DNA from: Deuterostichococcus epilithicus
Lineage: Eukaryota > Chlorophyta > Trebouxiophyceae > Prasiolales > Stichococcaceae
Length of the DNA: 64,000 bases
NCBI GenBank assembly: GCA_033439295.1
Contig: JAVTLE010000021.1
Coordinates: forward strand, 2,914,009-2,978,008
Direction: 5' to 3'
The notes beneath the pieces are model-generated. The model had not been told where the DNA came from, did not search any database, and was given only the letters and a program-made list of their open reading frames with translations. Below, in pieces: positions 2,415-51,100 of the stretch. The position numbers and the translations under genes are program-made. Position 1 is the first letter of the stretch, and each line of letters begins with the position of its first letter.

Positions 2415-5400
2415 ATGGGCTCCAAGAAGAGCTTCTTCTCCGTGTCGTCCGCCTCCAAGCCCGGATCACAGAGCAGCACGCCGCGGCGTACGCCGTCGGC
2501 CAGCAGCCTGAGTCGGGGCTCTAAGCCTGATTGGGCGGGAGTGTATGACGCCAACTCGGCCAGCACCCCCAGCAGCCGGCGCGCCAGCTTCAGCGAGGAC
2601 GGAGACGGAGGCGCGCCCAGAACGCCGCCGCTGCGGCGCACCACGCAGGTTCAGGCCGAAGGTGAGGCTCAGTGAGCCATACGCGGCACGCCGGCACACT
2701 GCTCACCTGCGCCACTGCGTTGGCTGCCATTGAATGTGGAAGGCCCTGAATGGCAGTGCGTACGCAGCTGTAGTGCACCCAGCTCACTGATGACGTTTTC
2801 AATCGATGTCCCCGCAACACTGCGCAGATCGAGTGAAGGTGGTGGTCCGGCTGCGCCCTGCGCAAGAGCATGAGACGCCCGGCGCAGTTCAGGTCGCCGA
2901 GGACGGCCAGCATGTGCTCCTGGCGCGCACGTGAGGCCCCTCATTGCCTTGATGTTCTCGTGTGCCGTGCGCGCTGGACCTCTGGCCCGCCTGACAGTGG
3001 ACGCTTGACAGCTGCCAGATCGCCCGCATACGCACACCAGAGCGGCATCGGCGGTATGTAACATCGAGATCCTCTGAAGTAAACGACCGCCGATCGTGAT
3101 GCCGGTCGCACACAAGGACTATGGCGGGCTTCATGCGACATGCAGGAAGGCGGTCACTCCCCAGACGGAGTTCAATTTTGACGAGGTGCTGCGGCCGGAG
3201 TCGACGCAGGCCGACGTGTATGCCGCCGCCGTCGCGCCTGTGGTGGCCGACGTGCTCAACGGCTACAACGGCACGGTCATGGCCTATGGCCAGACAGGTG
3301 CAAAGGACAATGCACCTCGTTCAGACTCTTTCTTCCTCTGCAGCTCGACAGACCTGTATGCCGTGCATCTGCCGCTCACGATGGTCCGCCATCGGTCCCG
3401 AGATCGCACAGCAGGTGTGCCTCGTCTCCCTGAACCGTTGGATTTGCGACCCGCGCAGGCGCGGGCAAGACGTTCACGCTGTCGAGCCTGGCGCCAGACA
3501 ACATCGGCATGATGCCACGCGCCGCGGCCGCCATCTTCAACGAGGTCCGGGTGGACCCGGTGCACCACTACACGGTGCACATGTCCTACATGCAGATCTA
3601 CATGGAGATGATCCAGGTGCGTCATCCTTCTCCAAGCCGAGCTGGGTCTTGGAGACCAGCGGTGTTTTTCGACTGGTCCACCTGAACACGTCACAACTCC
3701 CTGATTCTGGCATATGTTGTGGACAGCTCAATTACCTCGGGCATTCAAGCAGACCTTGCCTGGTGCAACACCAGGGTCCGCAGCATCGACGGCACACGTC
3801 ATGACACCCATTGTCCGCATGCGCACGACTCTGCAGGACCTGCTGCAGCCCAAATCGGGGGACCTGCCAGTGCGGGAGTCTGCAGAGGAGGGCGTCTACG
3901 TGCCCGGTCTCAAGGAGGTGCTGGTCACGCGCCTGGAGGACTGCCTCGAGCTGCTCAAGCTCGGCGAGCGCAACAGGTGAGGCATGCCCCCCTGCCGCCT
4001 GGCACGGCGGCCTGCCGCGACGCGTGCTGTGTCATGCAGGGCGGCTCCCCGGCCATGAGGACTGCCTCGAGCTGCTCAAGCTCGGCGGGCGCAACAGTCC
4101 GCAGGTCCCGCCTTCTGGCAGGGCCAGTCGCATTGCAGTGTGGTGCAGCAGGTGGCGGTCGGCACCTGTAACGAGTGCGGCCGTGCGGCAGGCAACCTCA
4201 GCTCACATCCGAATACTCTGCCATCGTTCGCCCAGATCACTGCGCCTGGCCAGCTCAGCCTTGCATGATGTATGTGGGCGTCGCACACTCTGTGGGCAAG
4301 CTGGAAACTAAACGATCTCGCCGTCACCGCAGGAACTACGCCTTCACGAAGCTCAACGCGCACTCCAGCCGCTCGCATGCGCTCGTGCTGCTGACGGTGG
4401 CCAAGCGCAAGGTCATCTCCCCTGCCGCCGGCGCCGAGGCCGGCCAGCCGCACGCAGACACCGTGTCCATGAAGGCCAACGTGGGCCGCCTGTACATGGT
4501 GGACCTGGCCGGCAGCGAGCGCCTCAAAAAGTCCATGTCCACAGGCACGTCAAACTCCTGGCGCAACACGAGCGCGGAATCAACTTTTTGTTTCTGGAGG
4601 GTCAGCTGTCAGTATTCTGCAGTGTGGTTCGAGGCAGACGGACATGCAAGCTTTTCCAGACCCATTGTGCGTTGCATTCCAGATCCATTCATTCGTTGAC
4701 ACACATTTGCAATGCACTTTGGGCTGTGCCTTGCCGTGACCTGCGGGCATGCCATCGCTTGCAGGCATGCGCGCCAGCGAGGCCAAGGCCATCAACCTGA
4801 GCCTGACGGTGCTGGGCATGTGCATCAATGCGCGCGCCTCCGCCAACGCGCAGCATGCGCCCTACCGAGACTCCAAGCTCACCCGCATCCTCAAGGTGCC
4901 CCTCTAGCTGCCTGACTCCCTCGGGGCAGGGAGCTCGCCAGGCTGGGCCGCACGCGGCGGTGCAGTGCACAGATGAGGTCCCGAGTCGGACGAGCAGCCA
5001 AGGCGCTTGCCCGATGCTGCGACGAGCAAGAGCTGCATGCAAGCACAGCTGCCTGACGCCCTGAGCTTGGCGGGAACCTGCATCTGGCATCGGTTCGCTG
5101 TGATGCAGGAGTCCCTGGGCGGCAATGCGCGCACGTCGCTGGTGGTGGCGGTGGCGGAGGCCATGGAGCACTGTGACGAGACGCTGCAGTCGCTGCAGTT
5201 TGGCACGCGCGCCATGTTCGTCGAGAACCAGGTGCAGCCCAGTGCTGAGCCGCTGCACATGCACCACAGGGTGGGAGGAGAGATGGAGTCGTCGGATCTC
5301 CAGACTAAACTCTGACGTTCGACGACGCAGGCGGTGGTGAACGAGAAGACGGACGACGCGGTGACGCACCAGCAGCTGCTGAGCGAGATGGCGGAGCAGG

Positions 5401-8400: not shown

Positions 8401-11400
8401 AGCTGCTGGGCAACGACGCCAAGCTGGCGGCCGCCGAGGCGGAGCAGCGGGCGGCCGAGCTGGCGCAGCAGGCGCAGCGCGCGGCGGCGGCCGCCGAGCA
8501 GCGCCTGCGCGAGTCGCAGGCGGCCAGAGACGCCGCCGCGCGCCAGCATGCGGCGGAGGCGGCCGAGCTGCGGCGGCGGCGGGAGGCCGAAGCGGCGGAA
8601 GCGGAGCGGCGGCTGGCCGAGCTGCAGGCGGCCAAGGACGCCGCCGAGCAGCAGGCAGCGGCGGAGGCGGCGCACCTGCGGGGCGAGCTGGCGGCGGCGG
8701 CGCAGCGGCTGCAGGAGCAGCGGGACGTGGCGGACGGCTACGTGGAGATGCACGCGGCAGAGGTGGTCGACCTCAAGGCGCAGATCCAGCAGGCGCAGGT
8801 GCAGACGCATGGTTCAGTTGCTGGAGCTGTTGCTTGCCGTGCATCTCACGGTCCGACACAGTGGCACAGCCATGTCAGCCTCAAAGCGCCGACCTAGCAG
8901 GCGCAGGCGCCCTCTTCCTTGTTTCATCGACCGACCTGCCTTTTAGTGGTGCACTGCCCTTGCACATGTAGCTCAAGCCGGTCTGGCACAGGCTACCTGC
9001 GGCGCAGGAGTGCGAGGCGTTGTACCATGGGCGCGCGCTTCCCGGCTGCAGCTCTGCCTGCCGGGCAAGCCGGCAGCCGGCAACCCGTCCACGAGCCTCT
9101 CAACTTCGGTCTCGGAACTTTAAAAATGTGAGGTGGGCGCACAAAATTCCTCGGCTGCCGTATTCTACAGGGCCTGGCCGATGCGATGGCGGAGGAGCTG
9201 GCGGACCTGCGGCACGTGGCCGCGGCGGTGGAGGCCGAGCGGGACGCGGCGGCGGAGGAGGTCGAGCGCCTGGGCGGCGAGCTGGACCGTCTGCACCGGG
9301 AGTGGGCCGAAGACAGCGCCGAGTTCAAGGTGTGCGCCCGCCGGGTCGCGGAGTCCCATGTGACAGCTTCTCAGCTTGCATCCTGTGTCAGGAAAAGGTT
9401 CAGGCGGGTGTGCATATGGGCATCGGTTTGCGTCATGCATAATGGAAGCGACAAGGACGTGGAGCGGCTCGGATGCGCCTGCCATACTTCACAGCTAGAG
9501 GTGCTTCGCGCGGCTGCCGGCGGCGCAGTCTGTCATCCTGGATTGGCGGCTCTGGCTCTGGTGGCAGTCGGCAGCCTCGTCAATGGAGCGATGTTGAATG
9601 GGGGATCGCGGCACCATCATGCTGCCTCGTATGCCACGTACATAGGGGCCCCTGCCCAAGTGGTCATTGCATGACCTTGATGTTCGGACGGCACAGGTCT
9701 GTAGCAAAGCCTGTGGGTCAAGATGAATGTGCACAGCAAGCTCGCCTGCTGCCAAGCCTGCGCTGCATTGCTGCTGCCTCCGCTTGCGTGCTCGCCTGCG
9801 TGCCTGCCTGCGAGGCAGGAGTCGTAGGCGCTGCCAACTTCCCAGGCAGGAGGATGTCAATGACCGACTGTGCATGTGCATGCTTGGAACACAACCTGCA
9901 TGCAACGATCTCTTTTGCAATGACCGTGTCTTGCTGCAGAAATGGCCCGAGTCTCAAACCCCCGCAGCCACTGCAGCCCGGTGGCGGGAATCCTGCGAGT
10001 CCTGACACTCTCTCCCGCAATGGTTGAGCCGTGTGGGACGTGTGTGCCGGCATGCAGGCGCTGGGTGTCCTGGTCGCAGGCGCGATGGACCGCACGGGAG
10101 GCGGCGACGGCAGCGGCGGCGGCGACGGCGGCTGAGGAGGCTAGCCGCGCCATATCGCGCCGCGACGCCGAGCTCGCCGACGCCACCGCCAACTCGCGGT
10201 TTGCGGCCGCTGCCGCCGCAAAGGCCCTGAACGAGGCCACCGCCGCCCTCGCCGAAAAGGTGGCCCTCATCGAGAAGATGGAGGCCGAGGCGGCGGAGTC
10301 GGCCGCCGCGCTGGCGGCCNCGCGGCNNNNGGCGGCTGGCGCCGCCACCNCNGCGGACGAGCAGGCAGCGGCGCTGGCGGCGGCGGAGAGCCGCAGGGCC
10401 GAGCTGGCAGGGGCGCTCAAGGCGCTGACGGTGGAGCACGGGCGGGCATCGGCTGCCGCCGGGCAGACAGCCGAGGATCTGGAGCAGCTGACCGGCGCCC
10501 ATGCGAAGCTGCTGGCGCAGGTGAGCATGGAAAAATTCTGAGTGTTCCCCTTCTGACTTGACAGTCAGGGGCAGGTGTCAACCCTGAGTTCCAAGCCTTG
10601 ACAGTGGATTCGCATATAGCACACTTCTTATCGCTTCGAGGCAGGCACATGAATATCACCTTCGTTGCTGCTGCATCTGGGGCGCCTCACAGCAGCCTCT
10701 TGATCGCTCCTGATGGCTCTGATGGCTCTGATTGTCCCTGCAGGCGGACGAGACAGAGACGGAGCAGCAGCAGCTGGCCGGCCGGTGCGCGGCACTGGAA
10801 GTGCAGCTCGCCGAGGAGAGCAGCCGGGCTCGGACTACGGCGGCCGCCGCCGCCGCTGCCGCAGCGGCGGCATCTGCGGAGCAGGCCGCGGAGCTGCGCG
10901 CCCGCAACGACCGCCTGGCCGAGCAGAACGGCCAGCTCGAGGTGGGCACGTCAATTTTCAGAGCGTTTAATTTGCGTTTGACGACCAGCACATACGAGCA
11001 GAAATCTTTCGGGGAGCTGTGCCTACTGTTCTGCGCATCGGCGCAATGAGCAGGCAGATTTCTGCGTCGGGATGGCTCCACCGATCCGGCTGTCCGCTGC
11101 TGCCCAACGCAGGCGGCGCTGAGGGCGCAGCAGAGCTCGGCGGCGGTGGCGGCGGCGAGCGCTGCGGCGGCCCGCGCGTCTGTTGAGCGGCAGCAGCGGC
11201 AGGCGTCCGAGGCCGCGGCGGCGCGGGATGCCGCAACGGCGGTGCAGCGCCGCTTCCGCGCCGCGCGCGCCGCCCGGCAGGCCGCCGACCTGGCCGACCG
11301 CGACAAGGTGGGCATTTGCCGGAGGCATATCAAACGTGTGACGGCCGACCCCGCTTGATTGCAGGCCACCCGCTTGCACTTTGGGGACGCTCCCCACAGT

Positions 11401-14604: not shown

Positions 14605-14760
14605 AGCCGCTCCTGGATCGATCGGCACGGACGGCTCAGATATAGCAGGCTGGTCCACTAGCGCAGCGCCTGGGCCGCGCCGCCCGCGGCGCCGCCGGCA
14701 GCCCGCTGTAACAGCCCTGCAGCACTGGCGGTCAGGCAGCTGACGGCGTCACTCGCAAAT

Positions 14761-17700: not shown

Positions 17701-20700
17701 CGCGCAGGACCTGGGCGGCTGGATCTCACAGGTGGCGCCCGAAACCTGCTGTGGACTTGCGGCTCCAAAGCAGAGAACATCTGCGCGGAGCCATGGACCA
17801 GGGCTTGCATCTCGACATTTCTTTGCACAAACCTGTGCGCCATGATGAAGGTGCCATGATGCACCGCCCTTAGCCGACCCCTTGCCTCTGCTGTCGCGCT
17901 GGCTGTGGACTCTTCACCCCTCAAATAGCGTGAGTGGGCTCGCAGGGCGATTGGGGGCTTCCTGACACCCGCCATGGCGGCCTCTGAGCCAGATGCTTAG
18001 CTTGCCAACACCTTGGAGGTCGACGTGTGCGACACTGCCCTGCGCAGGTGCACGGGCAGTGCGAGACGATCACGACGCGCTGGCGGCCGGTGCCACTGAC
18101 CTGGCACTTCTGCTACAGGTGCGCAGCCGTGCACTGCTCCCGGTTCCTGGGTCAAGGTGCATGCATAGTGCTGCCTGCAAGCTTTCTTGCCACCTGAATG
18201 CTTTGCCCCGTATGTTCCATCTTCAGAAGACGTCAGGCAATGTACCGGGTGAGTTAGGCAATGCTCGGGGTGGTGTACTTTGCACATGCCAGCCAGCATC
18301 CTTCACTGCTCCGTGCAAGCCGTGACGGCATGCTGCGACTGCGCAGCAATGGGGAGGAGACGAAGCTGGTGCGGCTGCTGAACCGCAAGGGCAAGGGGCT
18401 GCACCCGGCGCTGCTGCCTCCGGCGCCGGACCCCGCCGCCGAGTGGCGCTGCGTCGATGAGGGCGGCCGCCGCAACCGCCGCGCCCGGCGCAGGTGCTGA
18501 CATTGCCCGTGTCTCGAATATGGTACCAAAAACAAGGCAGCATCGAGGTCTTGCTCTTTCAGGAATATGCAAGAGAGGCATTTCACGGACTCGCCTCAGT
18601 GTGGAACATGCCACACAGTTGTCCACGAACCCCCAGGCAGGTGGACTTGTGCAGAGTTGCATGCGCAATGCACTCCACAAGACGGTGCAAACAGCTGCTA
18701 TGCTGCACTGTCGTGACCTGCACCGCAGGAGCCGCGAGCTGGACAATCTGCTGGCGGGCACCGAGGACGAGCCGGCCAGCAAGCTGGACAAGCGCGCGGA
18801 GCCGCCGCAGCACGAGGTGGTGGCGGCGCTCGCTGAGGCGCAGCTGCTGCCCGCCATCTGGTTCCTGTTCAGCCGCCGGGGCTGCGAGCAGGCGGTGCTG
18901 GCGCTGCACGCCGCCGGCATCTCCCTGACCAGCCCGGTGCGCATTCCATTGATGGACGTTCTTCTGCACAGTGGTGTTGACTGGTGCATTGCCGGCCACA
19001 AGTCAAACCAGGATTGTCGTTATGCATGACAAGCCCTGGCGCAGGCGTTTCCTGCACCGCCTGTCGTGTCGTGGCAAATGCCTCCACGCTACATCCTCGA
19101 CTGCGGCGCAGTATGGAATATAGTTCGCCGAATATGTCACAATGAGGGCGCAGGCAGGCGGTCCAGCCAAAGCCACATTCCCAAGCGTTCCTACAACTCT
19201 AATGGAGTGATGCTGTGCTGGAGGAGTGGGCGACAATACGGGAGGAGGTGGCGGCGCTGCGGCAGAACAAGGCGCTCGGACACTCAAATCGAACACTCAA
19301 ATGTCTACGACCACCTGGCAATGGACCGCAGGAGGAGCGGCATGCGATCCGGGAGGAGGTGGCGGCGCTGCGGACGGAGCAGCCAGAGGCGGTGCCAGAG
19401 CCGCTGGTGCCGGCGCTGGCGGCCGGCCTGGCGGCGCACCATGCCGGCTGCCTGCCCGCCTGGAAGTCCCTCATCGAGCGCTGCTTCCAGCGGGGTGCGC
19501 CTTCCTGCGAGGGACACACGCGCTTCTGTACAGGTTTGAGTCACGGAAAACATCCCCGCTGGCTTTGGGAGGAGAGATCGGCCAGTGCCCAGTGACACCG
19601 TCACCTGCGCGCCCTGTGGCTGCTGGTGACGATGTTGCTGTGGGCTGCGACTTTGCCCCCAGTGCCAGGATGACAGCTGCAATGGTAAAGTCTGGCATGC
19701 ATGCCCCTGCTTCCCCTGAACATGCATGCTGAGATCCGCATGATGCCACCGGATGCGCTGCATGCACTCTTGTGCAGAGCTGCGCCGGTTCAGTGGCATT
19801 CCACAGTATCCTGCCGAAAGCGCATTCGCCCGTCGCACCCTGTTAAGTGCATTTGCCCGTCGCACCCTGTTAAGCGCATTTGCCCGTCGCACCCTGTTCT
19901 GAGGTTGTTGTGGCCAGGTGACCGGTGAGAGAATCATATGCATCCGTGTGGCACCGTGACGAGGGTCAGCTGGACGCGTGTCGGGATGCCAACCATGGCA
20001 GCGCTGTCGGCCCCCGCCGTCGCCAGGAGGCACAGCGTGCAGCGGCCCTGCAGGCATTCACGACCCTGTGCATGCCCACACCACGCGCAGGCCTGCTCAA
20101 GGTGGTGGCGGCGACCGAGACGCTGGCGGCGGGCATCAACATGCCGGCCCGCACCACCATCATCGGCTCGCTCAGCCACCGGCAGTCCAGCGGCCACGCG
20201 CTGCTGAAGCACAACCAGCTGCTGCAGATGGCGGGGCGCGCCGGCCGGCGCGGGTTTGATGTCGCGGGTGCGATCTTGCAAATAATACCTCAGAATGGTT
20301 TGTTTCGGAGGGTAGTGGCTTTGTGCATCTGCTTGACTCGCTGCAGCGAGCGGATCAGCACGCCGCAGCAGAGCAACTGTGTTGTCGGCGGCTCTCTGGC
20401 CCCAAAGTGGGAGCGGAAGTGTGACAACTCGGTGCTCTTGTTTCTACGGCGGCTGCGCTCGCTGCAGCAGACAGAGGACGCTTAGGCCTTGTGCCCGTGT
20501 TCAGCCGCGTGCTGCTTGCATGGCACACCGCACACAGCTGTATGCACATCAACCTTCAAGCTGCAAGGTTTCGCCTCAGCACCTCAGTTCATGAGCTGTG
20601 CCACGTTGCATTCCAGGCACTTGCTGAATCTGCAAGGGCACATGTCCAGGCACATGCTGGATGCAGACCTTTGCTGTCTGCGGCTCCCGGCATCACCGGC

Positions 20701-23700
20701 ACTCATGTCGCACGAGGGCACTGCCGGGCCTTACCACCCTGCTGGCCTCAACACAGAATTTCATACTGCAGGGCACTGCGTCATCCTGCATAGCCGATTC
20801 GAGGGCGCCGACGTGGCGGCCGACATCATCGGCGCCGGCCCGGAGCCCCTGACCAGCCAGTTTGCTGCGGGCTATGGCATGGTGCTCAACCTGCTGCACA
20901 CGCGGTCGCTGGCGGACGCGCGCGCCTTCCTGGAACGCTCCTTCGGCAACTACATGGGTGCGCCTGTGCAGGGTTTAGTGTATGTGTACACACAGTGGGG
21001 TTTGGGGCTGTGGCAGTTTCCTCGTGCGCTCCTCCGGCAACGACATGGGTGCGTGGCCGGCTTGTTCTACACGGCTTTTTGGACGTCGTGGGCTGTGCCC
21101 TGGATTGCTCCTCCGGCAACTGCATGGGAATGCCATGCCGATGTAGCCCGTCTCTTGCTGAGGGACGCACAGCAAACAACGCAATGCTGCAACCCGTTGG
21201 CAAGCTGCAAGCCGAGCTGATACGTCGGGCAGGCTTGCTGGGGAAACCATGCAAGCGCACGAGGTCACATAGGTCACATTTCTGCGGCATGTGTTTGCAC
21301 TGGGCTCTAGGGGATCACGCAGCCGGCAGCCACGCTGGCTCGTTTGGTTTCGAGTCGGGTGCACACTTCTGCTGTCCTGCAGACGTGCGTGCACATCTCA
21401 GCTGCCCGCCCGCGTGTCTGCGCAGTTTCCACTCGCTGCCGATTTGCATGTGCATAGGCGGCGACGGGCATGCGCGGCGGCTGCGGGACATCCAGCACCT
21501 GGAGGCTCAGGCGTCGGCGCTCGCCGCCGAGCGCGCGGCTCTGGAGGAGGCCTCGCAGGTGCCCCCGCCTGCCAGTGTGGCTGCCGCCAGAGCTGAGCAG
21601 TCCTCGAGTCCCGCGCTTGCAGATTGCAGCTGCACTCACTGGGCGTCCGCAGGCGAGAGGGACACCATGCTTGTCGGGGCTGTGTGTGATAAGGCTTCTG
21701 GCAGGTGCCGATCGTGCAGACAGGCTGAAATGTCCGGGGCGAACGGGACGCAGCGGCACATGCACAGCCTCGAGACGCTGTGCAGCAACTTTCCCACTCG
21801 CATGACAGCTCCCCCACACAAATTCCCCACAGGACGCAGAGGAGGTGGCCTTGTACGCAAAGCTGCAGCAGCGGCTGAAGCAGGAGCGGCGCGCGGTGCG
21901 GGTGCTGCGGCTGGAGGCGCTTCGCGAGCGCACCGGCCGCGCCGCCACCGCGCTGGATGCCGCCGGTCTGCCCTGCGCCGTCGGTGAGTTTCCGTGCACG
22001 TCGGTAGGGTTTTGCGGCGTCCTGGTGGTGGACGCGACCGACCTGCCCTGCGCGCCTTTGGTGCGTCCCGGCAGACTCGCCACATCGCTGGATGTGAGTG
22101 CTTGCTCTGGAAATCGGCGTGATGGTGCGCTGTATGCCGGGTCATGGCCAGGAAGGCGCTGCTGCCTGCTCTCATATTCTCAGGCATGCTGTGTCAGCCT
22201 CATCCAGGAGCAGTCCTTTTATGACTCGAGTCCCCAGTCAGACTCCGCAAACGCAGCCGCGTCTGATTGTCAAAAGAAAACCCCTCTCGACCCTTGCAGG
22301 CGTGGACTTGACGCCGGGCGACGCGCTGGAGTCCCCTGGACAGCTGCTGCCGGCGGTGGCGCTGCGCCGCCTGGAGCCGCCGGAGGATGTCCTGGCCGAC
22401 AACCCGGAGGCGCCCACCTACTTCCTGTGCCTCTCGTCCGACAACAGGCGAGGTCCCCTGTTGATGACGGGTTCCGTCTCAGTGACATCCCGGTGCAAGG
22501 TGCAGAGGTGCCAGACGCCGTGCTGCGCGCCTGTCTGGGGCCGTGATCTGAGGCTGTCTGACACTGCAGTTTCTGGCATCTCAGGGCGCTGGTAGTGATG
22601 GCGCTTGTGCACTGGTGCCAACGATGAGGCAATGAACCCTGTCAATGCCGCTGCAGGTTCCTGATGGTGACAGCGGAGCACGTTGTGGGCATTTCAGCGG
22701 ACGACGATGCAGCCAGCTCAGTCGGCAGCGGGAGCAGCGGCAACGGCGCAGGCCTGTCCATGCACGAGGCATTCGTGAACGCCTATGCCGAGGCTGGCGC
22801 CTCTGGAGCAGCCAGCAGCAGCGGCAGCGTCAATTCAGCTGCGGGGTCTGCACCAGCGGCTGGCAGCCCTGCTGTCGACTGGGGCCGTCTGGACGCGGCA
22901 GGCGAGGCCGCGAGCTGCCCGACTGCGGAGGCTGCCAGCAACCCGGGCAGCAGCGCCCCCGAGGGCAGCGTCAGCGGCGAGGCAGGCAGCAAGGGCGCGG
23001 TCGCAAACTCGCTGGGCAACGGCGGCAGCGCTGGCGACGGCACTCCCAGCATCAATGGCGGCGGCGGCGGCGGTGGCGGCGATTCGGCTGGCGGCTTGAC
23101 CGGCGGCTTTACGCTGTCGGCAACGGAGGTGGAGGTTCTCGTGGACGATGCCGGGCGGGGCGCCTGGGGCGAGTGGGCCTCTCTGCCCGCTGGCGTGCAG
23201 ACCGCATCAGGTAATTCCCCCCAAGCGCAGTCGCTTGCGACCGGAGTGTGTGCTTGGTGACAGCGGCCGTCGCCGCAACTCCTGGCCGCCTGTGCCAGAG
23301 TGGCGCCACTCGCGTGCCGACGGTGCACATGCGAATGCAGCGCGTCATTCTTTCACGCGCTTGTGGCTGCAGCTACTCGCGGGGCCTGTCGAAAGGGTGC
23401 AAGGTCGTGCATGCAGGCACGCGGCAGAGCGCGGCGGTGGCGCGGCGGCTGCCGCCGGCGGGCGACATCGTGGCTGTCGAGGTGGACCCCATCCTGGAGC
23501 AGGCCTTCCTGGAGCAGCGCGACCTGTCACGCGAGGTGCGCAGCTGTGGGCCCTCAGGCTTCGGGTCGCATCGAGATCTAGGGTTTCCCACTTCCACCTC
23601 CACATTTAGTTGCAATTCCCGCTTTTTGGGTTCCAGCACCATGGCCGACCCGCCTGATTGACCCCGGCAGCGAGCTCGCGCCTGCACCGCCCTTGGGCCA

Positions 23701-38529: not shown

Positions 38530-41500
38530 TCAGTCATCAAAAGTCACCTTTGTTGCCTTCTTCGAGAAGTCCACATCCTGCGAGACAGCGACCTCAAGAT
38601 TTGTTAGACCCGCGGGTGCGAATTTGAGAGACCCGGAGTCGGGGTTGTAGCCTCGTCTTGGTGCCACGGCACTCTGGCCGGCAACTTCTCAATGCCCGCA
38701 ACAGCGCGTCGGTTGTGCGACCTGAGACAGCTGGAGACACATAACCGAAGACAAAAAAAAAGACAAATACAGTCTCCGACGGAGGCCCTCACCCGGAAAT
38801 GCGCGCCATACAGCTTGCTTTCCTTCTTCTTGACGGTGGTGCCGAAGGCAAGCAGCGCCTCCGGCACCGGCTGCTTTGCCTCCCGCAGCACATTAATGAG
38901 CTCACCCGCGCGCGGCTTGTCCGTCTCCCCACTGAAGAAGGTGTGCGCGGCGCCTGCATCCGGAAAATAATGGGGTAGGATTAAATGACGAGCTCGCCGG
39001 CGTGCGACTTGTGCGTCTCGCCGCTGGTGAAGGTGCGCGCGGCGCCCGTGAGGCGGCATTGCACGAAGTCGTCTGCCTCGCGTCAGCTTTGCGTCATGTG
39101 GCTCATCGGCTGTTGGCCGAGGTTGTGCGACAGTCGTGCAGGAGGTTTGCGGAGAGGTCAGGCGGCAGCACCTGTCTTGCCGGCGCGCCCAGTCCGCCCG
39201 ATGCGGTGCACATAATCCTCTGTCGTCTGCAGGATCCAAACAAATATTTTACTTGTTGATCAAACGTCTTGCAGTGGTTGTCTACAAGTGTCGACCGGAC
39301 GCCTCGGGAGCAGCCACGGATCAGTCACACGCTGACGCAGGGTCTCAGTGGCTGTGTGGCACCTTCTCCCAGCAAAACAGCTGGCCAAGCAAGACGGCGC
39401 CCGCGAGTGCGCCCACTTCACAGGGCGGAAGAGTGTGACGGGCACACCATCGGGGAGAGCAGGACTCACCAGGGGGAAGGAGTAGTTGATGACGACCTCC
39501 ACGTTGTCGATGTCCAGGCCGCGGGCAGCGACGTCCGTCGCGATCAGCAGCGGCACCTGCCCGCTCTGTGCATCAGCTCAACACAGAGATCGGATCAGGT
39601 CGTTGCGACACTGTGATCCTTCTTCGTCAGACACGGCGTCTACACGATCAAGACAGGCACCCCGGTTTCGAACAAGGTTGGTGATGCAGCAGTGGTGGCG
39701 CGGCGGTCAGAAGCCAAGCGTTCAAAGCTGAGTGTGATTTCATTGATGGGGCGCAGTTGCTTAATGCGACACCCTCAAGTGAAGTTGGTCTCATCAGCCC
39801 GGAGCGCATTTCACGGACAACAACCAAGGCAAACGCAAAGCCTGCTGGACGGCAAAGGCGAGCACGAGTTGCAGCGATCTGCAGGTGCAGACATCAAGAA
39901 CGAGCAGCGCCAAGATGGCAGTGGTGGCGTGGCGGTCAGAAGCCAAGCGTTCAAAGCTGAGTGTGATGTCATTGACGGGGCGCAGTTGCTTGATGCGACA
40001 CCCTCATGTAAAAATGTCTCGTCAGCCCGGCACGACACCCCACCAACCCCGAACATCAGCAACACGCAGAGCATTCTAGTAAGCCAGGGAAGGGAAGTCA
40101 AGGTGAGTTCAGCAGGTGCTTTGCAGAGCATGCCCAGTGTGGCGGCGCAGTGAGGCGACGGTCAGAAGCCAAGCGTTCAAAGCTGAGTGTGGTTTCATTG
40201 ACGGGGCGCAGTTGCTTAATGCGACACCCTCAAGTGAAATTGGTCTCATCAGCCCGGAGCACCCACCGCAGTTGAGGTTCACGAACAACACCATTCTAGC
40301 AGTCAAACAGTATAGCAGTCAAATCTCAGTCGGGAGCGGCTGCAGATGTAGCAAACAGCTACAGACGCCATTGCACGTTGGGCGGCTTCAGCTAATCAGG
40401 GACGGGCATGAGTGGCGGTGCGGCGGTCAGAAGCCAAGCGTTCAAAGCTGAGTGTGATTTCATTGACAGGGCGCAGTTGCTTGATGCGACACCCTCAAGT
40501 GATGTTGGTCTCATCAGCCCGCAGCACACACCCACCAGCAGGATCACGAAGAGCTTATGTTCCTAACCTGCCTAGTCGAGGTTGGAGCACTACAGCCGCA
40601 ATGTGGTGTGGAAGCAGGCCAAAATACCTCAGGCGGCTGCGCCAGCGCAAGCTCCCGCCATGTGAAACGTTTCAGAAGATGGTCCATCCGGATGGCAGCA
40701 GAATGGCAGGCGCTCCCGGTCCTCACGGCGGTGCTCACGGCACATCACAGCAACAGCAGCTGTGGCTACAGGCCCGTTGGGGTACAGCTCTACTTATGGT
40801 TTTGAAGTGGTCTGACAGGTGCGCGTCAGCACAGGGGGTTCTCCGGAGTGTGTGTCGAACCTTGAAGCTGTCGACGGCGGCGGTGCGTTGCGCCTGGCTG
40901 GCGTCCCCGTGAACCGCCACCGCCTTCCAGCCCGACCGGTTCAGGAACTGCGAGGAGCAAGCAGCAGCGTCAGACGCCGCCGACGTGACTCCACACCAAT
41001 GCTTGCCAGTTGCAAGCTCTCTCTGTCGCTTTGCGGGATCCTACTTCAGATTACGGCCCAAGCGGGCGACATGACGGAAAGTGCCAGCACGAGGACAGCC
41101 TCCAACACATTGTGTGCGCCATCGCAGGTGTATGCCAAAGTCCTTCTGCACCTGCTCCACGCGGGCGGCCTCCTTCTTGTACAGGACGAAGACGATGACG
41201 CGGTTGTCGCGCTTGGACCCGTGGTGCTGCTTCAGCAGCTCCAGCAGCCGCCGGTCGCGCTGCCGCGGGTCTATCACCTCCACCGTCTGCAGGCGCCATG
41301 CAAACAGTCCTTTGAGCGGTCGAACCGGTCGCCGGGGCATGGGTAGCGTGTTATATGCGGCGGCTTGCGCTGGCATGGGTCCGCAAAACCATGAGTCAGG
41401 GCGGTAGGTTCGCGGCGGCCCCTCTTGTGTCCTTGTCATGCGTCTCGATGCGATCTTGTTGCGGGTTACTGTGGTGCGATGGGCAGCCAAGCAGATCTGC

Positions 41501-44500
41501 AGCAGGAAAGCGACAGATGAACACCTGGCTGACGGAGTGGCTGGCGGACAGGTCCGCGGAGCCGATGGTGACCTTAACGGGGTCGCTGAGGAACTCGGCC
41601 GCCAGCTTCTGGATGGAGGGCGGCCAGGTGGCGGAGAACATGAGCGTCTGGCGGTCGGCGCGCGTCTGCTGCGCGATCGCGCGGATGTGCGGCTCGAAGC
41701 CCAGGTCCAGCATGCGGTCTGCCTCGTCCAGCACCAGGAACCTGAGACAGCAAAAGGTTCTTGAGGGGGTTGTTATGAGGTTTTCGGGGTTTCGTTGTTG
41801 CGGCTCAAAGCCCAGGTCCAGCACGCGGTCCGCCTCGTCCAGCACCAGGAACCTGAGACAGCATAAGGTTCTTTAGGGGACGGTTAAGAGGTTTTCGGGT
41901 ATTGTTGATGCGGCTCGAAGCCCAGGTCCAGCACCACGGTCCGCCTCGTCCAGCACCAGGAACCTGAGACAGAAAGAGGTTCTTGAGGGGATGGTTATGA
42001 GGTTTTTGGGTATTGTTGAGGCGGCTCGAAGCCCAGGTCCAGCACGCGGTCCGCCTCGTCCAGCACCAGGAACCTGAGACAGAACGATGCTCTTGAGGGG
42101 TTTATGAGGAGATTTTCGGGTATTGCTGATGCGGCTCTGAGTCCAGGTCCAGCACGCGGTCCGCCCCGCCCAGCACCAGGAACCTGGGGGCAAATCAGGT
42201 GTCTGTTTGGGTGTTGTTGTGCGCTATTCGGTTTCAGAATTTGATGGTGCAGCTCGGAGTCAAGCAAGCAGTGCGCCCTGTGCGGCGCGCCAGGAAGCTG
42301 CGAAACATAAAGCGGCGGTGCTCGGCAAGACTGTGTGACTGTGCAGATCCCTTGCACTCAGGTCACTCAGCGCACATGCCGCCTAGCCCAGCACCAGGAG
42401 CCTGCGGCAGGCATTTCAGAGAAAAGTGTGCGCCACTCGTCATGTCGATAGGTTGAGCACGGCAGATGCAGACCGTCTTGCCGCCAGGATGGACCCAGGA
42501 GCGTGGCGGATTCGAGAAGTCAGAAATGGCGGTTGATGGCGCACGTGATGTGGTGCAGGCGCGCGGCATTGTCGTTCATGAGGTCCTCCAGCCGCCCCGG
42601 CGTTGCGACCAGCACGTTGACGCCCTTGCGCAGCGTCTTGGCCTGCAGTGGGCGACCACAGGGGCCTGGAGTCAGCCACAAAGCTTTGCAGGCGCCTTCA
42701 ACAACTGGAGACGGCAGGAAGCCGTGCAGCATGGCGAAGCCCTCCCTGTGGCTGAGCGCAGATGGCTGCTCCAGCTCTGGTCCCGTGGCCAGCGCTGGTC
42801 GTGGAACGGGACAAGGTGCTGCAGCTGCATGCACAAGCTTTGCGCGGCATGGCACACAGCAGCATGTGCCCGCCCGAGGCGCCTTGAGGCTGTCGCCTCT
42901 AAGCAACGGCCACAGACACACAAGGTGGCGACATTGTGCTGCCGGACCAAGTGCCCGCAGCAAAGCCTGGAACAATAAAATTTTGTTCAAGGCTGCCCAC
43001 CTGGGGCGGCTTGGGCACGCCGCCGTAGACGCACAGGGTGGTAAGCCCCAGCGGCTGCCCTGCGGCCTCCAGGACGCCTGCGATCTGCATCGCCAGCTCC
43101 CGTGTGGGCGCCAGCGTCAGCACCGATGGCGCGGTGCCTGCGTGGTGGCGGAGGGTTTACGGTTTAAGGTTTTAGGGGAGAGGCAGTATCGACACACAAT
43201 GACCGCCTGCCAGCTCAAGGTGCACTCGCGTCCCAGGCTTTGCCTGCGGCAGACGCCGGACTGCGCTGACAGCTGTGACAGGGCAAATGTGACGGCCATG
43301 CTGCCGTGCTCACCCCCATCGTTCCTGACCAGCCGCCACCCTACCCCAAGACAGCTGCGGCTCACCATCTGCGACGCCGGCGGCGAGCTGGGCGCGGACG
43401 TGCGCGAGCGCCGGCAGCCCAAAGGCGAGCGTCTTGCCGGAGCCCGTGGCGGCGATGCCGATAACGTCGCGCCCCGCGCAAGCAGGCGCCCAGCACTCCG
43501 TTTGGATGGGCGACGGCGCCGAGAAGGCGGCCGTGGAGCGCAGCAGCTCAGGCCCAAAGCCTGCGGTGTGCAGCGGCCGCGTCGGAACAGAGCGAGCCAG
43601 CAGCATGGCCGCCAGGGCCAGGCAGCACGCATGCGCACACAAGGACTGCTGCACAATGGGCGTGTGGCCACGGAACCCTGACTGCCGCCGCAGGCCACTC
43701 GCAGCACCGCGCATGTGCAGCAGACAGGACTGTGTCGACATGCATCTGAAAACTGACCAGAGTGCTCGAAGGAGCGGATGGGCTTCAGGTCACAGCCGGC
43801 GACGACGGTGGCGCGTGACTCTCGGAACGCCGCCACATCTGCATCGGCCTGACCAGCCACTGCCGGGTGCTCTGTGTAGGTGCTGTAAACGATGGGCTTG
43901 GAGTTGGTCGCCAGCTCCACGCTGCCGACGTCCGCCATGCGACGTGGACCGGCTGCTGCTGCCGCCTTCTGCTTCTTGGCCGCCGGCATGGCGGCTGGCG
44001 CAGCGGCCGCACCTGTGCTGACGTTGGGAGCCCCGGCTGCCGCCGCTGCTACCTTGAGGCGCTTGCGCTCCTTCTTGCTGAGCTTTGCAGAGACGCCTAA
44101 AGCTGCGGCGGCCTCGGGCGAGGCAGCCTCAGATGCATCGCCTGAAGGAGCGGCGGCCGACTCCGCCTTCCTCTGCTTCTTCAGCGCCTTTCGGGCCTTT
44201 TTGTCGAGGCCATTGGCCAAGGGGGTGGCCTCATCGTCTGCGGAGGCCGCCGCACCGTTTGCCGGCGGCTCAACTGCGCCGGCGGCTGGGGAGTCAGCCA
44301 AAGCCGCTGCTGCAGCCGCCTCTTCCGCCCGCTTCTGCTTCTTCAGCTTCTTCTTGAAACTGCTGCCTGCCGCAGGTGACGCCGCAGGGTCGGCTGCAGA
44401 TGCCGTGCCGTTGCTGGCAGGTGTGCTGGCGGCTGCGCCACCACCTGCCGCTGCTGCGGCGGCTTCTACCGCCTTCCGCTTCTTGTCTTTCTTCTTCAGC

Positions 44501-44526: not shown

Positions 44527-45141
44527 GGTGGCACAGAAGCTGAACGCCCCGCGCAGCAGTCCCTGCAAAATCTGCACAATCTTGTCACCGGACTACACGC
44601 GATGTGAGGAAGCGCGGCGCAGCAACACACATCGCACGGACCAGCGGCCTTTGAAGTGCGTGTCAAACACACCTTTGCGCGTCTGTGACCACCCAGCACG
44701 TTTCGCACGTCAGCACGCCCACTTGCGACGGCACCCAGGTGCGGCGGCCTTACACACAGCCGTTGGCACGGCTGATTCCCCGACTGAGGATGGAATGATC
44801 GGCATAAACACCGGCCTCTTTCTGAAAATGCATTGTGCGAGAACTGCAGCAGCCGTCGGCCTCACTGCAGCAGGGTCTTGTGGCCGTTCCGAGATGAACG
44901 CTGGTTGTCGCGGCACAGCCAGATACTCCTTGCAGCATTTCGGAGTTCGCATTGACGTGCTTATATCACAGAGCTTGGCGTCGACACTGCTGAACGCCCC
45001 AGAGCACGGCGGCGTCACAATAAGTTGTGCATGCTTGTCAACAACACCTTTGGACTTGACGGTCAGCAGACCTGCTGATGGTGGAACGTGGAAGGTGCCT
45101 CAAATGACCATGCTTTGCGCTTGAAAGGAACGGATTGAGCT
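44527..45141. promoter_or_regulatory. Divergent intergenic region, RH5 / NOL10
   Basis: These 615 bp separate the starts of two ribosome-biogenesis genes on opposite strands, so a common regulatory region is plausible. I see no conserved coding sequence; a minus-strand open frame of ~100 codons here has no recognisable features. Confidence 0.5.
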
Positions 45142-48100
45142 ATGGCGGGGCTCAAAGTCTCTGCTCCCGACGGTGTCAAGGTGAGCAGCTTGTATGTCGG
45201 GCTACAGGAAGCCCTGGATGACCTCCGAGCTCGTGGTATTGTAGGCTGTTGACCATGCGAATGATATTCTAGGCACCACAGCGGGTGTCGAATCCTCGAA
45301 CGATGCACATGCCAAATATGCACGCCGCCGCCCGATTCGCTGCACAGCAGCTTGCCATGCATAGGGTGGTCGTCGCCGGCTTGACCTGAGCTCGTCGAAG
45401 CACGGTGGCCTAATTCTCATCGACAGATGCAGCGGAACGTGTCTGAAAGTAGGAGTAGTAGGACTGGCGCATCCGCCGGTCGGCACGGATGCTGCGGCGC
45501 CGCCGCCTGGCTCCACAGCCACCTGAACACACGACAGCGATTTTAGCCGAGCTGCGCTTCACCGACAGCCAATCTCCCTATCGTTCTGCTGCGGCAGCCT
45601 GCTGCATCAGTCTGCTGCATCGGCCATCCTGCATCGCCGCAGGTGTACAGCGTCGCCGGCGCCAAGGCGCTGCCGGCATGGCTATCCGAGAAGAAGGCGC
45701 GGGCAGCAAAGCGCGATCCCGACTACGCCCGCCGCATCGAGCTGGTGCAGGACCTGGGCTTCCCGGGCGCCTGCCAGCGCCTCAAGCTGTCGCCGGACGG
45801 CTCCTTCCTGTTCGCCTCCGGCACACACCCGCCGCGGGTGGGCATGGCGCAGGCGCTTCCGGAAGTGTTTGGGGAGCTTGCTGCTGCTGGCAGCTCAGCA
45901 TGGCCTGCCCGGAGGTGTCTCAGCTGGCGAGCTCCTCAGTTAGGGAGCGCCAGTCAGGGACTGCCAGACTCGTGCGAGGTTGCAGGGAACAAGCAGCAAA
46001 CTCTGCCGGCAACCCGCCCCGCAGGTGCGCGTGTACGAGCTGGGGCAGCTGGGCATGAAGTTCGAGCGCCACCTGGACGCCGAGGTCGTCGACTTTCAAA
46101 TTCTGAGCGACGACTACGCCAAAGCCGCCTTCCTGTGCGCCGACCGCTCGATCGCGCTGCACGCCAAGTACGGCGCCCACTACCGCACCCGCATCCCGAC
46201 GGCGGGCCGTGACCTGGCGTACGTCCCCCACACGGCAGGTGACTGCTGCTGTGTGCGGGATAAAGGACATGGTCGGCCCCACCGAGCGCATTCAGGCGGT
46301 GCCCGCATCATCTGAGGGCCAGTCGTGCACCGGCGGCATCGGCAGAGTGGTCAGAACCTGGTCGAAACCGGATGCGTGCCGCCTGCTGGGCTGGTCGCCT
46401 CCCTCCCTCCTGTCCTGCTCCCCCTGCAACAGCGCGTCCTGGCGCTTGCGCCTCCTCGCGCATTCCTGAGCTGCCCGGCGGCATGACGCAGACCTCATCG
46501 TGGTGGGCTCGGCGGCGGAGGCATACCGGCTCAACCTGTCAGAGGGGCGCTTCCTGACATCGCTGCCGCTGTCTGCGCCCGCCGCCAATGCGGTACGGCA
46601 CTCACTTCAGCAGGACCTGACATGCCAAGTCACAGTTGGGCGCCGGTGCAGTGCAGCCGTGACCCATGTCTGCAGGTCAAGTCAGCATTCGCCGCAGCCT
46701 CAACCACCGGCATGGGGAAGGTGCTGCTGTCCTGCAGCGGTGCGAGGCATGTACACCGGGGCTCCTGCAGCTCTCAGCACTCGTTGCTGAGGTGACGCCG
46801 CGCTTGTCGCAGATCGGCCTCAGCCCGGCACACGGGCTGCTGGGCGTCGCCGGCGAGGACGGGCGCCTGGAGTGCTTCGACCCGCGCCAGCGCGCCGCCG
46901 TCGGCTACATCGACGCAGCCGCGGCCGCAGGCGTGGTGCGCCTCAGACACCCCTGCCATGTCGAGCTCATGCAGCTTGCAGGGACGACCCTCCGCCCCAT
47001 AAAGCCGTCCCGGGGTGCCCCACACTGACAGGCCACCAGCTTGAGTCAGATCACCTGCAAATTGCGGTGCCGCACGCCCCGGTCTGGCCGCACCCCGCTC
47101 GGCACGGCCCACTCGCTTTCGGGACCCCCATTTGCAACCCCGCGTCCCCTTGCACACCCGCCCGCAGCCCGTGGCGCAGCAGACGGCGGTGCGCAAAATT
47201 ACACTTATGACGTTTACCTACCGATCCACTTCTCCAAACACGATACCATGCGCACCGCCTACAGCCCGGGGAGCAGCTGACGGCGGTGCGCTTCGACGAC
47301 ACCGGGCTCGGCTGCGCGGTGGGCACCTCCGGCGGCCTGGTCGCGCTGTTCGACCTGCGGGCCCGGAAACCCACGGTAGTCAAGGACCACATGTACGGCC
47401 AGCGCATCACGGACATCAAGTTCCACGCCGCAGGCCACGACGGCCTCGCAGGCGCGCATCTTCTACCTTTATTTTATCTTTTAAAGAATATAATAAACTG
47501 TACCGCCTCTTATTCGATGGTCACCTGTGCCTGTCTATGATAGGCGAAATACATCCTTCAGTTTCGTAATTGCACTGCAAAGCAGGGTGGGGATTTTTTT
47601 GGCTTGCACTACTGCGGCCTGTTGTCTGGCGGGCCCGATTCCCAGCTGCCGGGGTGTGTGGGGTGCTGCAGACGGGCCTGCTGATGGCGCCACCACGCGT
47701 GCAGGCCGGAAGGTCATCAGCGCGGACACGCGCATCGTGAAGATCTGGGGCGCGGCGGACGGCGCACCCTACACCTCCATCGAGCCGCCCGGCGCCGGCG
47801 ACATCAATGACGTTTGCGTGTGGCCGGACAGCGGGTGCGCTCATGTCGGGCGCACGCGCCGGAGTTTCCATCTAGACCCCAGGAAAACACAGAAGTCTTG
47901 CCGCAGCCGCAGGCTGGCGTCGAACGACTGCGACCGTGCTGGCCTGACCAGGCACTCTGTGTGCGACCAGCGCATCTTGACCGAGAAACAGCACCCAACA
48001 CTAGAAAACAGGAGTCGGCATGTGGCATGCAAGGCCTGGCATCACGAGGCGAGTTCAAGTGCGCTGCATCAAGTGGCGTGCATGCGCACAGGCTGCTGAT

Positions 48101-51100
48101 GGTCGCGCGCGATGCTCCCGAGATCAGCCCGTTCTTCATCCCCAGCCTGGGCCCGGCGCCTGGCTGGGCTGCCTTCCTGGAGGGGTTGACAGAGGAACTG
48201 GAAGAGGCTGCCGCGCCCACCGTGTACGACGACTACAGGTATGGTTTGTCATGCATAAATGCACGATCGTACTCGTCGTGTTGGAAGGATGAGCTGCATT
48301 GGCTGCCCTGGGCCGCAGCAGTGGCGGCGGCATCGCCCCGTGCGCAGCAACCGGGGCGGTGATGGAGATGAGAGCTTGTGCCCATTTCTAGGGCCAGGAA
48401 AACTGCGACTTGCTGTCGCACTGCTGCAAGCAATCTGGTCCTGCAGGCTCGTGACCCAAGTGGAGCTGGGCAAGCTGGCGCTGGGGCTCCTTGTGAGAAC
48501 GTCTCAAACGATGTCGAATCAGAGTTGAATCAGAGTCTTAACCCATGGCTGCACGTCACGGCTTGCCTCTCCAGATTTGTCACGAAAGCGGAGCTGGACA
48601 AGCTGGCGCTGGCTCACCTGGTGGGCACGCCGCTGCTGCGCGCCTACATGCACGGCTTCTTCGTCGACAACCGGCTGTACCGCAAGGCCAAGGCGCGCGT
48701 CCGCACCGTGTGTCTGGCGCACTTGAGCTTGTCGAGTATCACCATCGCTCCGGCGCATCAGGGGCCGGCCAGCGCCGCGAGACCGCGCGCACCGCCCCTG
48801 ATTTGCCTCTGAAGCAATTTTTGCGTCTCTCATCCGGCTGCGGCTCCGCCGTCTGTGTTCGAGGCGAGGTCGAGCTGTGCCGGCTCATCGCCCTGGACCT
48901 CGTGTGGGAGCCGAGCGCACAAATCACACGGATGTCGCGCAGGCGCTGGCGGAGCCATTTGCGTACGAGACGTACCGGCAGCAGCGCATCGACGCCAAGC
49001 TGGAGGCGCAGCGCGAGGGCCGCATCTCCCTTATCCGCAAGCTACCCAAGGCGCGCCCCTCCTGGCCCTTCTCAGTGATCATACCATACATCGCAAAGAA
49101 CTGCCTGCTGCCCCTCGTCCTTGCCATGCTTGGTTGCACTTTGGCGTCTCTGGAATGGGCTCTGGCGGCAGTGTTGAGGGTCGTGCAGCGCGAGGCGACA
49201 AAGGCGTGGCTCGCGGGCTGTCGAGGCTGTCGGGCCGCTGTGTGGTGACTACGGGCCCTTCAGGTCCCGAGCCCTCTGCGGCGGCTTCCCGCAGGTCAAC
49301 GCAGCGGTGGCGGCGCGGGCGCTGGCGTCCCAAAAGCGGGGCCCGCCGCCCCGCGCAGACGAAGGCGAGGGCGAGGAGGGCGCGCCGGTGAGCCACACCA
49401 CTGGGCGCCGTGCTTTCCAGTCCGAGCTGCTGCATGCGCCCTGCCAGCTGCACCTTCCACTTGCACCCTCCACTTGCACCAGAACATCTTTGCAAAACCT
49501 CGAGCTCGTGCAGCCCGCCCGACAAGCCTGCTCCTGCCTCAGCTGCGCTCACGGGTCGAGACTGCGGCCCGATCGTATGTGGAAACCCTGGCACATCTTG
49601 TCCATCACCTGCCCTTCACTTGCTGTGATGCTGGCCAATGGCTGTGAGCTCAGCTTCCTGATCCAGCGGCTGCTGGTTTTCTTCTTTTTTGTGCAGGCCA
49701 AGCGTGCGCGGCCAGGCGACCTGCTGAGCGACGCGCGTTTCGCGGACATGTTCGAGCAGCGCGACTTCGAGATCGACCCTGATTCCGAAGAGTACAAGCA
49801 GCTGCACCCCAATGCCGGTGCGCCCTGCACTGATGTCTACTCGTTTCCTCTGTACATGTCCTTTCCTGTCACAGCTGTGGCCGCCACCTTGCCGTCGCAC
49901 CCCAACGCCGGGTTAACCTCGTATCAGTATGAGCTCTTGATGTGCTCCTATCCCAACCGCGGTGCCCACTCTGCCGTGATTCTGCATGAGGGCGATTGTG
50001 TAAGTATTTGCCGACCTCGGTGCTGGGCTCGTGCCGCCGAGTTACCCGCCAACCTTGGCACTGCCTGGAGCTGCGGCTTCAGCTCAGATCGAGTAGAGAC
50101 CTCAATCTACTGCCACATCCTCCTGCAGAGGGGCGCGCCAAGGAGAAGAAGCTCATACGGGAGCACTTTCAGCAGCTGTCGGACGCGGAGGAGCCTGGTG
50201 CCACAGAAGGCGGGGAAGGCGGAAGCGGCGCGGAGGCCGGCTCGTCAGAGGACGAGGAGGAGGAGGAGGCGAGCTCCTTCTAGGGTTTAGGGTTTAGAAT
50301 TCCTTCTGCTCCTGCTGGTTGTCTGATGCCGCCGTCGTTGTCCGGGAGAACAGCCGGGCGGTACGGACAGCTGCAACGGCCGCAGCAGCGGGCAGTGTGG
50401 ATGCGGGGCGGCAGAGTCTGACATGCGACAGGTGTTGGACCTGCTGACCTGCACGCCATTCATGCATGTCTGCTCCTGACCCTGGACTAGGAGCGCCAGT
50501 GCGCGCCACTGTGAGAATACACCTGATCGCCCAGCTCGCGGACTCTAAACCCTGAACCTTCCCTCCTTGCAGGACGCATCCAGGGCCAAGGCGCCTCGCA
50601 TGTACGCAGCTCGCGACTCGGCGGCGGCGGACGCCTGGCGGCGGAACGAGAGCCTTGCATCAGAGCAGTCGGCGCCGCTGGAGACTCGCGCCGCCGCCGC
50701 GGGACCAGGGCGTGGCGGCGCCGGCGTCACCAGGTGTGTGGGGTCTCTGGTTTATAGGATGTGTATAGGTGTGCAGGGAGAGCTACCCACAGCCCTCGTG
50801 GCAGGGGCAAATCCGTCGGTTCGAGCTCGATCTGATGGCGCTGTCAACTCGACTCTATTCAAGTATGTTTTCGTGCCAAACGCCTCTGCAGAAGGCTGAC
50901 AGAGGCAGCGCGAGCGCGATGACTGTGTGCGAAGCAGGCCACAATTGCGGTGCCAGCAGCAGTGGCCAGGCTCGTTCTGTCGCGAGGTGCTGCACTGCCT
51001 GAGAAGCATCTTTGAACGGACCAGCTACTGGGGATCAGCACTCTGAGGCAGTGTTGTTCGTCAGGCATCTGTGATCACCCATGACACGCAGGGTCGGCGG

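Follow-up and report, generated by a model that had tools for sequence, protein, structure and literature searches.

Pieces of exon that recur a short distance away inside the adjoining intron raise the question of how they came to lie there. Such repeats were reported in an earlier note on a 64,000-nt stretch of Deuterostichococcus epilithicus DNA, referred to here as the window, at exon edges of five genes (kinesin, ISE2-like, CAS, RH5 and NOL10). Ten of the twelve edges named there carry a clear repeat, whereas two are weak, namely 24936 and 21983, the latter with a score of 16-17 and not edge-anchored; the assignment of the note's exon numbers to coordinates was made in the present analysis. 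The copies and source edges are listed below in window coordinates.

3936..3976, forward strand: true 3' edge of a kinesin exon (exon 3837-3976; next coding exon from 4333, with the reading frame running on from 3976 to 4333; Kinesin Pfam match)
4057..4097, forward strand: intronic copy of this kinesin 3' edge, offset 121, 40/41 identical, following bases not clearly related
8874..8906, forward strand: kinesin coiled-coil exon, copy of its tail (exon end at 8798), 82% identity at offset 108
19221..19262, forward strand: copy of the ISE2-like exon head starting at 19332, offset 111, with a 24-nt exact run
21018..21048, forward strand: first copy of the ISE2-like exon tail ending at 20957 (20927-20957), offset 91, GTGCG donor
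21099..21127, forward strand: this tail copied a second time, at offset 170
24154..24461, forward strand: ISE2-like tandem array of about 2.5 copies with a period of 124; the repeat covers the intron half as well as the exon half
24832..24870, forward strand: weak copy of the head of the exon that begins at 24936, 74-76% identity at offset 104, score 17-20
27657..27725, reverse strand: copy of the head of CAS exon 27469-27622, offset 103, 69 nt, 90% identity, acceptor included
27821..27874, reverse strand: copy of the tail of CAS exon 27952-28078, offset 131, GTGGG donor included
28352..28408, reverse strand: CAS exon 28458-28585, copy of its tail at offset 106, with 88% identity and a single one-base gap
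38990..39045, reverse strand: copy of the head of RH5 exon 38793-38953, offset 92, 82% identity, AG lost
41742..42401, reverse strand: RH5 array, in which the 3' splice site and the first ~54-57 nt of exon 41525-41741 recur
47168..47194, forward strand: copy of the head of NOL10 exon 47265-47451, offset 97, CAG acceptor
48447..48501, forward strand: copy of the head of NOL10 exon 48575-48692, offset 128, 78% identity

The exon edges were those of a home-made gene finder trained on sampled D. epilithicus DNA rather than of RNA-based gene models; it was seeded with kinesin matches, which replaced GC-frame seeds (9 stretches only), and a minimum intron length was imposed in its final round. A PsaD piece has matches among photosystem I chains from a wide range of organisms, with those of green algae among the best. 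In total, 1391 exon edges within 314 kb, the 64-kb window included, were searched, and a match was kept if it lay in the edge's own flank, within 13 nt of the edge and at an offset of no more than 170 nt. The search returned 53 raw matches; 16 were dropped for an edge distance above 13 nt or an offset above 170, and the 37 kept gave 32 rows once merged. At most 30 of these are independent, as RH5 41741/41852 and 6738/6843 are each one repeat set listed twice. The identical search against the flanks of other genes gave 2-6 raw and 0-2 kept matches in 10 rounds, with a mean of 0.5 kept as opposed to 37. The exon-edge copies are not chance, and the excess at exon edges that the earlier note led one to expect from an offset scan is also present outside the window. 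In the sampled DNA, between 1 and 5 percent of exon edges have such a copy. They are rarer outside the window (16 rows for 1160 edges, compared with 16 rows for 308 edges inside, these edge numbers being twice the predicted introns, so that their sum of 1468 differs from the 1391 edges searched). The distribution is patchy, one stretch with 366 predicted introns having two cases, both in one intron; clustering over genes was not significant (P 0.09). Among the sampled pieces, C12:3450001-3600000 is cold. The kept copies are 72-96% identical to their source exon, with 98% over 41 nt in kinesin, which, judging from the sequence, argues against collapsed duplicate reads. Few copies exceed 93% identity, and the description of the process as "live" was not borne out.

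The position and size of the copies follow simple rules. At a Smith-Waterman score of at least 18, the exon head matches its own upstream intron in 9/627 introns (control 0.25) and the exon tail its own downstream intron in 9/627 (control 0), as opposed to 1/573 and 2/573 for matches of the wrong polarity. With a total of 18 right-way and 3 wrong-way matches, the proposed rule that copies of a 5' edge lie upstream and copies of a 3' edge downstream holds; the three wrong-way matches all lie in the RH5 array, where the gene model is wrong, as do three of the 18 right-way matches. Among 1307 edge queries, 24 matches were direct and one inverted at a score of at least 17 (29 and 4 at a score of at least 15). 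Inverted copying was rejected on this single case in 1307 at the higher threshold. The direct, edge-anchored copies lie at an offset of 108.6 +/- 17.9 nt (IQR 100-114.5; 32 rows), in agreement with the similar unit size noted before. Their exon part covers 23-70 nt in a search that stopped at 70, and no ceiling near 57 nt is claimed, since rows at 69-70 exist, where the query ended.

Introns that carry a copy exceed the others in length by about one unit. The 22 introns with events have a median of 375.5 nt, compared with 230.5 nt for 498 others of at least 150 nt (P 3e-5), and subtraction of one unit gives 249.5 nt (P 0.36), corresponding to ordinary introns plus one unit. The suggested intron expansion is thus supported; the suggested intron gain is not, as the inspected cases lengthen an existing intron and no new intron was recognised among them. 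The histogram of intron lengths was without peaks at steps of 108 nt, and a search for an older hidden layer of copies gave no more than a marginal excess, at some offsets from 52 to 130, once the detected cases were set aside.

The cleanest case is the RH5 array, a plain tandem array with copies at offsets 111, 222, 332, 442, 556 and 660 and a constant spacing (period 110-111), the two farthest copies being weak (P 0.105 and 0.035). The ISE2-like array contains, by eye, the 3' splice site and the head of the ISE2-like (DSHCT) exon; the gene-finder edge within it (24293) is misplaced, the likely edge lying near 24396, and the intron-half test is wrong there. Further copies at P<0.05 were found at 5 of the 22 edges examined. 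In multi-copy introns other than that of RH5, the steps (62-98 nt) are not constant and either fall short of the first offset or differ from it.

We consider it probable that the copies are what is left of small tandem duplications, most of them about 100-115 bp long, whose unit straddled the splice junction. Such a unit would comprise part of the exon edge and part of the adjoining intron, duplicated in tandem. The copy still attached to the remainder of the exon would stay functional; the other, lying in the intron, would be spliced out and decay, so that the intron would have grown by one unit with the protein unchanged. Repeated duplication of the unit may have given rise to arrays such as those of RH5 and ISE2-like. 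The duplication step would most likely be double-strand-break fill-in with end joining, or else slippage at short matches during replication, and in the four best-preserved units the breakpoints seem, by eye only, to show matches of 3-9 nt. Tandem duplications of up to ~100 bp flanked by short repeats occur in yeast rad27/FEN1 mutants and resemble the exon-edge units proposed here; however, they belong to a yeast mutant condition, and we know of no link between them and splice junctions.

The copies carry the marks of sequence released from coding. Differences between exon and copy are distributed over the codon positions as 51/62/61 (RH5 rows left out); the copies differ equally at all three positions and therefore decay as non-coding DNA. 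The lack of an excess at third positions counts against the duplication reading, as silent substitutions in the true exon would be expected to produce one. Offsets modulo 3 (10/10/12; 32 rows) reveal no reading-frame preference. A coding or alternative exon was rejected, since neither frame nor coding constraint is kept. A source in spliced RNA was likewise rejected, because the flanks matched the exon across the intron in none of 20 cases (P<0.05). The splice dinucleotides were copied as well, AG or GT being present at the copied boundary in 14 of the 24 copies anchored within 1 nt (background ~6%); one of the 14 (row 24293) depends on the misplaced edge. The earlier idea of decoy splice sites is supported in part, the copied boundaries being candidate sites.

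Local tandem duplication as the single mechanism, as proposed earlier, is favoured by the clearest cases, in which both halves of the unit are repeated: RH5 (110-111), ISE2-like (124), the intron at 18048 in C12 (68) and the exon edge at 19987 in C12 (101). The intron half is significant (P<0.05) in 9 of the 32 rows, where chance would give 5%, which also favours it; other versions gave 6/21 (RH5 left out) and 9/21 (three RH5 rows included, rows under score 16 left out). In simulations of neutral tandem duplication, however, a recognisable intron half was expected in 16.6 of 21 cases compared with 6 observed (RH5 left out), and in 21.5 of 23 compared with 7 observed (one RH5 row left out); a further version gave it in 83-90% of simulated cases. 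From tandem duplication by itself one would not expect most rows to lack a recognisable intron half. The best guess for the much faster fading of the intron half than of the exon half would be occasional gene conversion from exon to copy, as the patchy kinesin copy suggests.

A different reading, which we regard as rather unlikely, is that the exon edge alone is copied: a repair or template-switch event would insert it and the splice dinucleotide at a favoured distance within the intron, or gene conversion from exon to copy would renew the exon part. It would fit the 23 of 32 rows without a recognisable intron half and the averaged profile of 21 events (RH5 left out), in which exon identity is 0.74-0.80 over 40 nt (control 0.47-0.54) and intron identity, past the first three intron bases, is 0.51-0.59 compared with a control of 0.49-0.57. 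It would also fit the 31-nt exact run of the kinesin copy (permutation P 0.004) beside an adjoining flank of about 60% identity, the 24-nt exact run in the ISE2-like copy (entry 19239; P 0.002), and the scarcity of intron-only repeats, found at offsets 60-170 and a score of at least 17 in 4/610 introns (shuffled control 0), as opposed to 22/1179 edge queries. Three of these four sit within introns carrying edge copies. An edge-specific mechanism was not concluded from this scarcity, since intron sequence fades so fast that few intron-only repeats are detectable, with ~3 expected by a rough hand estimate and one independent case seen. At single loci the intron side gave P 0.049, 0.145 and 0.168 for kinesin in three test versions, and at the CAS edge 27622 it was not significant (P 0.8) despite 90% identity over 69 nt. 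Against exon-only copying, nine rows do carry the intron half at the same offset, the mean offset being 108.4 in rows with and 108.7 in rows without a recognisable one (P 0.75). Moreover, AG or GT is present in 9 of 16 copies without intron homology, which implies that copying crossed the edge, and RH5 is a plain tandem array. The mismatch-clustering test was ungapped, so gaps cause some of the apparent clustering, and its Fisher P of 1e-9 was not used as such, as gapped cases and duplicate rows inflate the value. About as unlikely is a combined reading in which duplication in this lineage is directed to splice junctions and favours units of some 108 bp. The true exon would renew the exon part of each copy, or that part alone would be copied, and the intron part would be free to vanish; introns would then grow outward from their own exon edges.

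It is very improbable that random intronic minisatellites or mis-called exons of an ordinary repeat background merely look linked to edges. The gene finder does mis-call copies as exons (CAS 27693-27725, RH5 41802-41852 and, probably spurious, kinesin 4139-4174), minisatellites are present within introns and between genes, and the 16 discarded raw matches belong here too; however, the control with its 0.5 kept matches, the near absence of intron-only repeats at such offsets and an annotation-free offset self-scan, which picks up the same repeats, speak against it. About equally improbable is that selection maintains the copies as mimics of splice sites with a regulatory role or as alternative ends of exons, since the AG or GT kept in 14/24 copies, which might favour it, is about the fraction that neutral decay at 18-20% divergence would leave, ten of the 24 lack it, offsets are without frame preference and change is equal at all codon positions.

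Tandem duplication of the junction-straddling unit, the reading preferred here, has relatives among described systems. One review (PMC3443670, citing Gao and Lynch 2009 and Hellsten 2011) summarises how introns are gained when an exon piece containing AGGT undergoes tandem genomic duplication, and Drosophila cases of such gain are reported in PMC2891723. As these sources present it, that process shares with the one proposed here small tandem duplications within a gene, duplicated splice signals and tolerance because the extra copy is spliced out. It differs in that duplication within an exon creates a new intron, whereas the proposed exon-edge unit would span an existing junction and lengthen an existing intron. 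At staggered double-strand breaks, fill-in by CST and Pol alpha-primase with subsequent end joining yields small tandem duplications, as described for mouse ES cells with Cas9 nickases and overhangs of 43 and 49 bp (PMC8355091). Being direct, adjacent and tens of bp long, these are a plausible source of the exon-edge units; in the passages of that paper describing them, they are tied neither to splice sites nor to a size of ~108 bp. Introners, transposon-like intron-generating elements, likewise alter intron content across a genome (PMC9860276). In their case one element is copied into many genes, whereas each exon-edge copy was found by its match to its own neighbouring exon. Small tandem duplication is a known type of mutation; for the splice-junction setting, no description was found in titles and abstracts among the best-ranked matches in open-licence papers.

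To our knowledge, intron lengthening without transposons is poorly documented. The exon-edge copies are a trap for gene finders, several having been called as exons here, and the pattern can be tested in any genome by an offset scan of exon heads and tails. If true, duplication of this kind, frequent, limited in size and spanning splice junctions, would offer a simple way for introns to grow and for splice sites to arise in excess.

The genome of 46.8 Mb (21 contigs) was sampled over a total of 314 kb, which is <1% of its length and includes the window (C18:2914009-2978008; GC about 63%; 20 N bases) and a stretch of a second contig, C12 (12 N bases). A PsaD gene found elsewhere in the genome agrees with a photosynthetic host, probably a green alga. 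Pfam matches in the window comprised a kinesin, an ISE2/Ski2-like helicase carrying DEAD and DSHCT domains, a DEAD-box helicase, named RH5 in the earlier note, and NOL10, and a scan of one piece of the gene named CAS in that note gave no match. A small hidden Markov gene finder was seeded by kinesin matches and trained on the window and C12. It returned coherent proteins, introns with a median of 199.5 nt, and the splice consensus GTGCG (donor) and GCAG/G (acceptor). Some intronic copies were wrongly called as exons, and the final edge search therefore ignored what lies beyond the edges.

Scanned offset by offset without gaps, the window gave isolated direct repeats at offsets 91-131, besides the repeated coding sequence of the kinesin coiled coil. 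In the window and a 200-kb C12 stretch, close direct repeats were common at offsets below about 340 and sparse above. At a score of >=18, exon heads matched their own upstream intron in 9/627 comparisons (control 0.25) and exon tails their own downstream intron in 9/627 (control 0), as opposed to 1/573 and 2/573 with the polarity reversed. At a score of >=16, with 50 kb from five further contigs added (n=520), there were 14 heads and 12 tails against controls of 0 and 1. Queries taken from introns only, of three kinds, matched in 3, 3 and 1 cases (controls 0.3, 0.3 and 0.7). The copies are direct, with 24 direct and one inverted among 1307 queries at a score of >=17.

The final search of 1391 edges yielded 53 matches, of which 37 lay within 13 nt of the edge at an offset of <=170, compared with five kept over ten rounds against the flanks of other genes (0.5 per round). 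Merging left 32 entries (19 heads, 13 tails), representing at most 30 independent cases because two pairs of entries describe one and the same repeat set each. The mean offset is 108.6 (SD 17.9, IQR 100-114.5), the exon part measures 23-70 nt (queries ended at 70), and identity to the exon is 72-96%. A further copy was found at P<0.05 in 5/22 edges. Multiple copies are as follows:

RH5 array, 41742..42401, minus strand: copies at offsets 111, 222, 332, 442 and 660 (P<0.05) and 556 (P 0.105)
ISE2-like exon tail ending at 20957, plus strand: copies at offsets 91 and 170
One C12 intron: exon tail copied at 100 and 184, exon head at 99, 137 and 226
Intron L030:3169-3582 of a sampled stretch: three weak exon-tail copies at 105, 167 and 246

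The model case is RH5, in which a 110-bp unit containing the intron end, the 3' splice site and the first 54-57 nt of the exon is repeated head to tail, with greater decay in the far copies. Two C12 cases and the ISE2-like array at 24154..24461 (plus strand, period 124) likewise repeat both halves of the unit, and offsets are alike whether or not the intron half can be recognised (P 0.75). On these grounds, tandem duplication with a unit spanning a splice junction is taken as the probable common origin. In mouse cells, such duplications arise when CST and Pol alpha-primase fill in staggered breaks (PMC8355091). The kinesin coiled-coil exon (7424-7969 and 8484-8685) carries in-frame tandem repeats of 108 nt (36 aa), a length equal to the exon-edge offset; they may have arisen by a duplication of this type and been tolerated since the frame is kept. 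At 6690-6843, a kinesin exon tail is repeated at offset 105 inside coiled-coil sequence, and this could be a repeat of the coding sequence instead of an exon-edge copy.

The intron half fits this origin less well. It was recognised in 6/21 cases, where neutral decay, simulated with a single mutation rate and modest indels, predicts 16.6, and in 7/23 against 21.5 in a second simulation of this kind; another version of the test gave 9/21, including three RH5 cases. Past the first bases, the averaged profile lacks signal on the intron side, and in the kinesin copy near-identity to the exon extends over 41 nt and stops at the exon edge. As a guess, the exon part could be preserved through gene conversion from the exon that depends on sequence identity.

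Copies are unevenly distributed, with 16 entries per 308 edges in the window, a rate biased upward because the window was chosen by the author of the earlier note, and 16/1160 elsewhere (heterogeneity P 3e-5). The cold region C12:3450001-3600000 (L014-L028) holds two copies, both in one intron, among 366 predicted introns, compared with 16 entries in 154 introns of the window. The RH5 intron 39689-40532 contains four copies of an intron-only element of ~80-110 nt, 93-96% alike, whose spacing of 226-265 nt is larger than for edge copies.

Differences are spread equally over codon positions 1, 2 and 3 (51/310, 62/313 and 61/311; 21 events) and offsets show no frame preference; the copies are therefore not kept as coding sequence. 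AG or GT stands at the copied boundary in 14/24 copies anchored within 1 nt (background about 6%), which shows splice sites that were copied and now decay. Creation of decoy sites, as proposed in the earlier note, is supported and any use in splicing is conjectural; neither intron gain nor "live" activity was borne out. The proposed intron expansion agrees with the data: introns with copies measure 375.5 nt (n=22) versus 230.5 nt in other introns >=150 nt (n=498), and 249.5 nt after subtraction of one unit, so that the excess is about one unit.

None of the titles and abstracts listed in literature searches described a duplication that crosses a splice junction already present, favours one unit size and lengthens the intron. 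Tandem duplication within exons can yield new introns (PMC2891723, PMC3443670). Whereas that route to intron gain duplicates sequence inside an exon, the unit here would have a preferred size and span a junction that was there before, and introns are lengthened.
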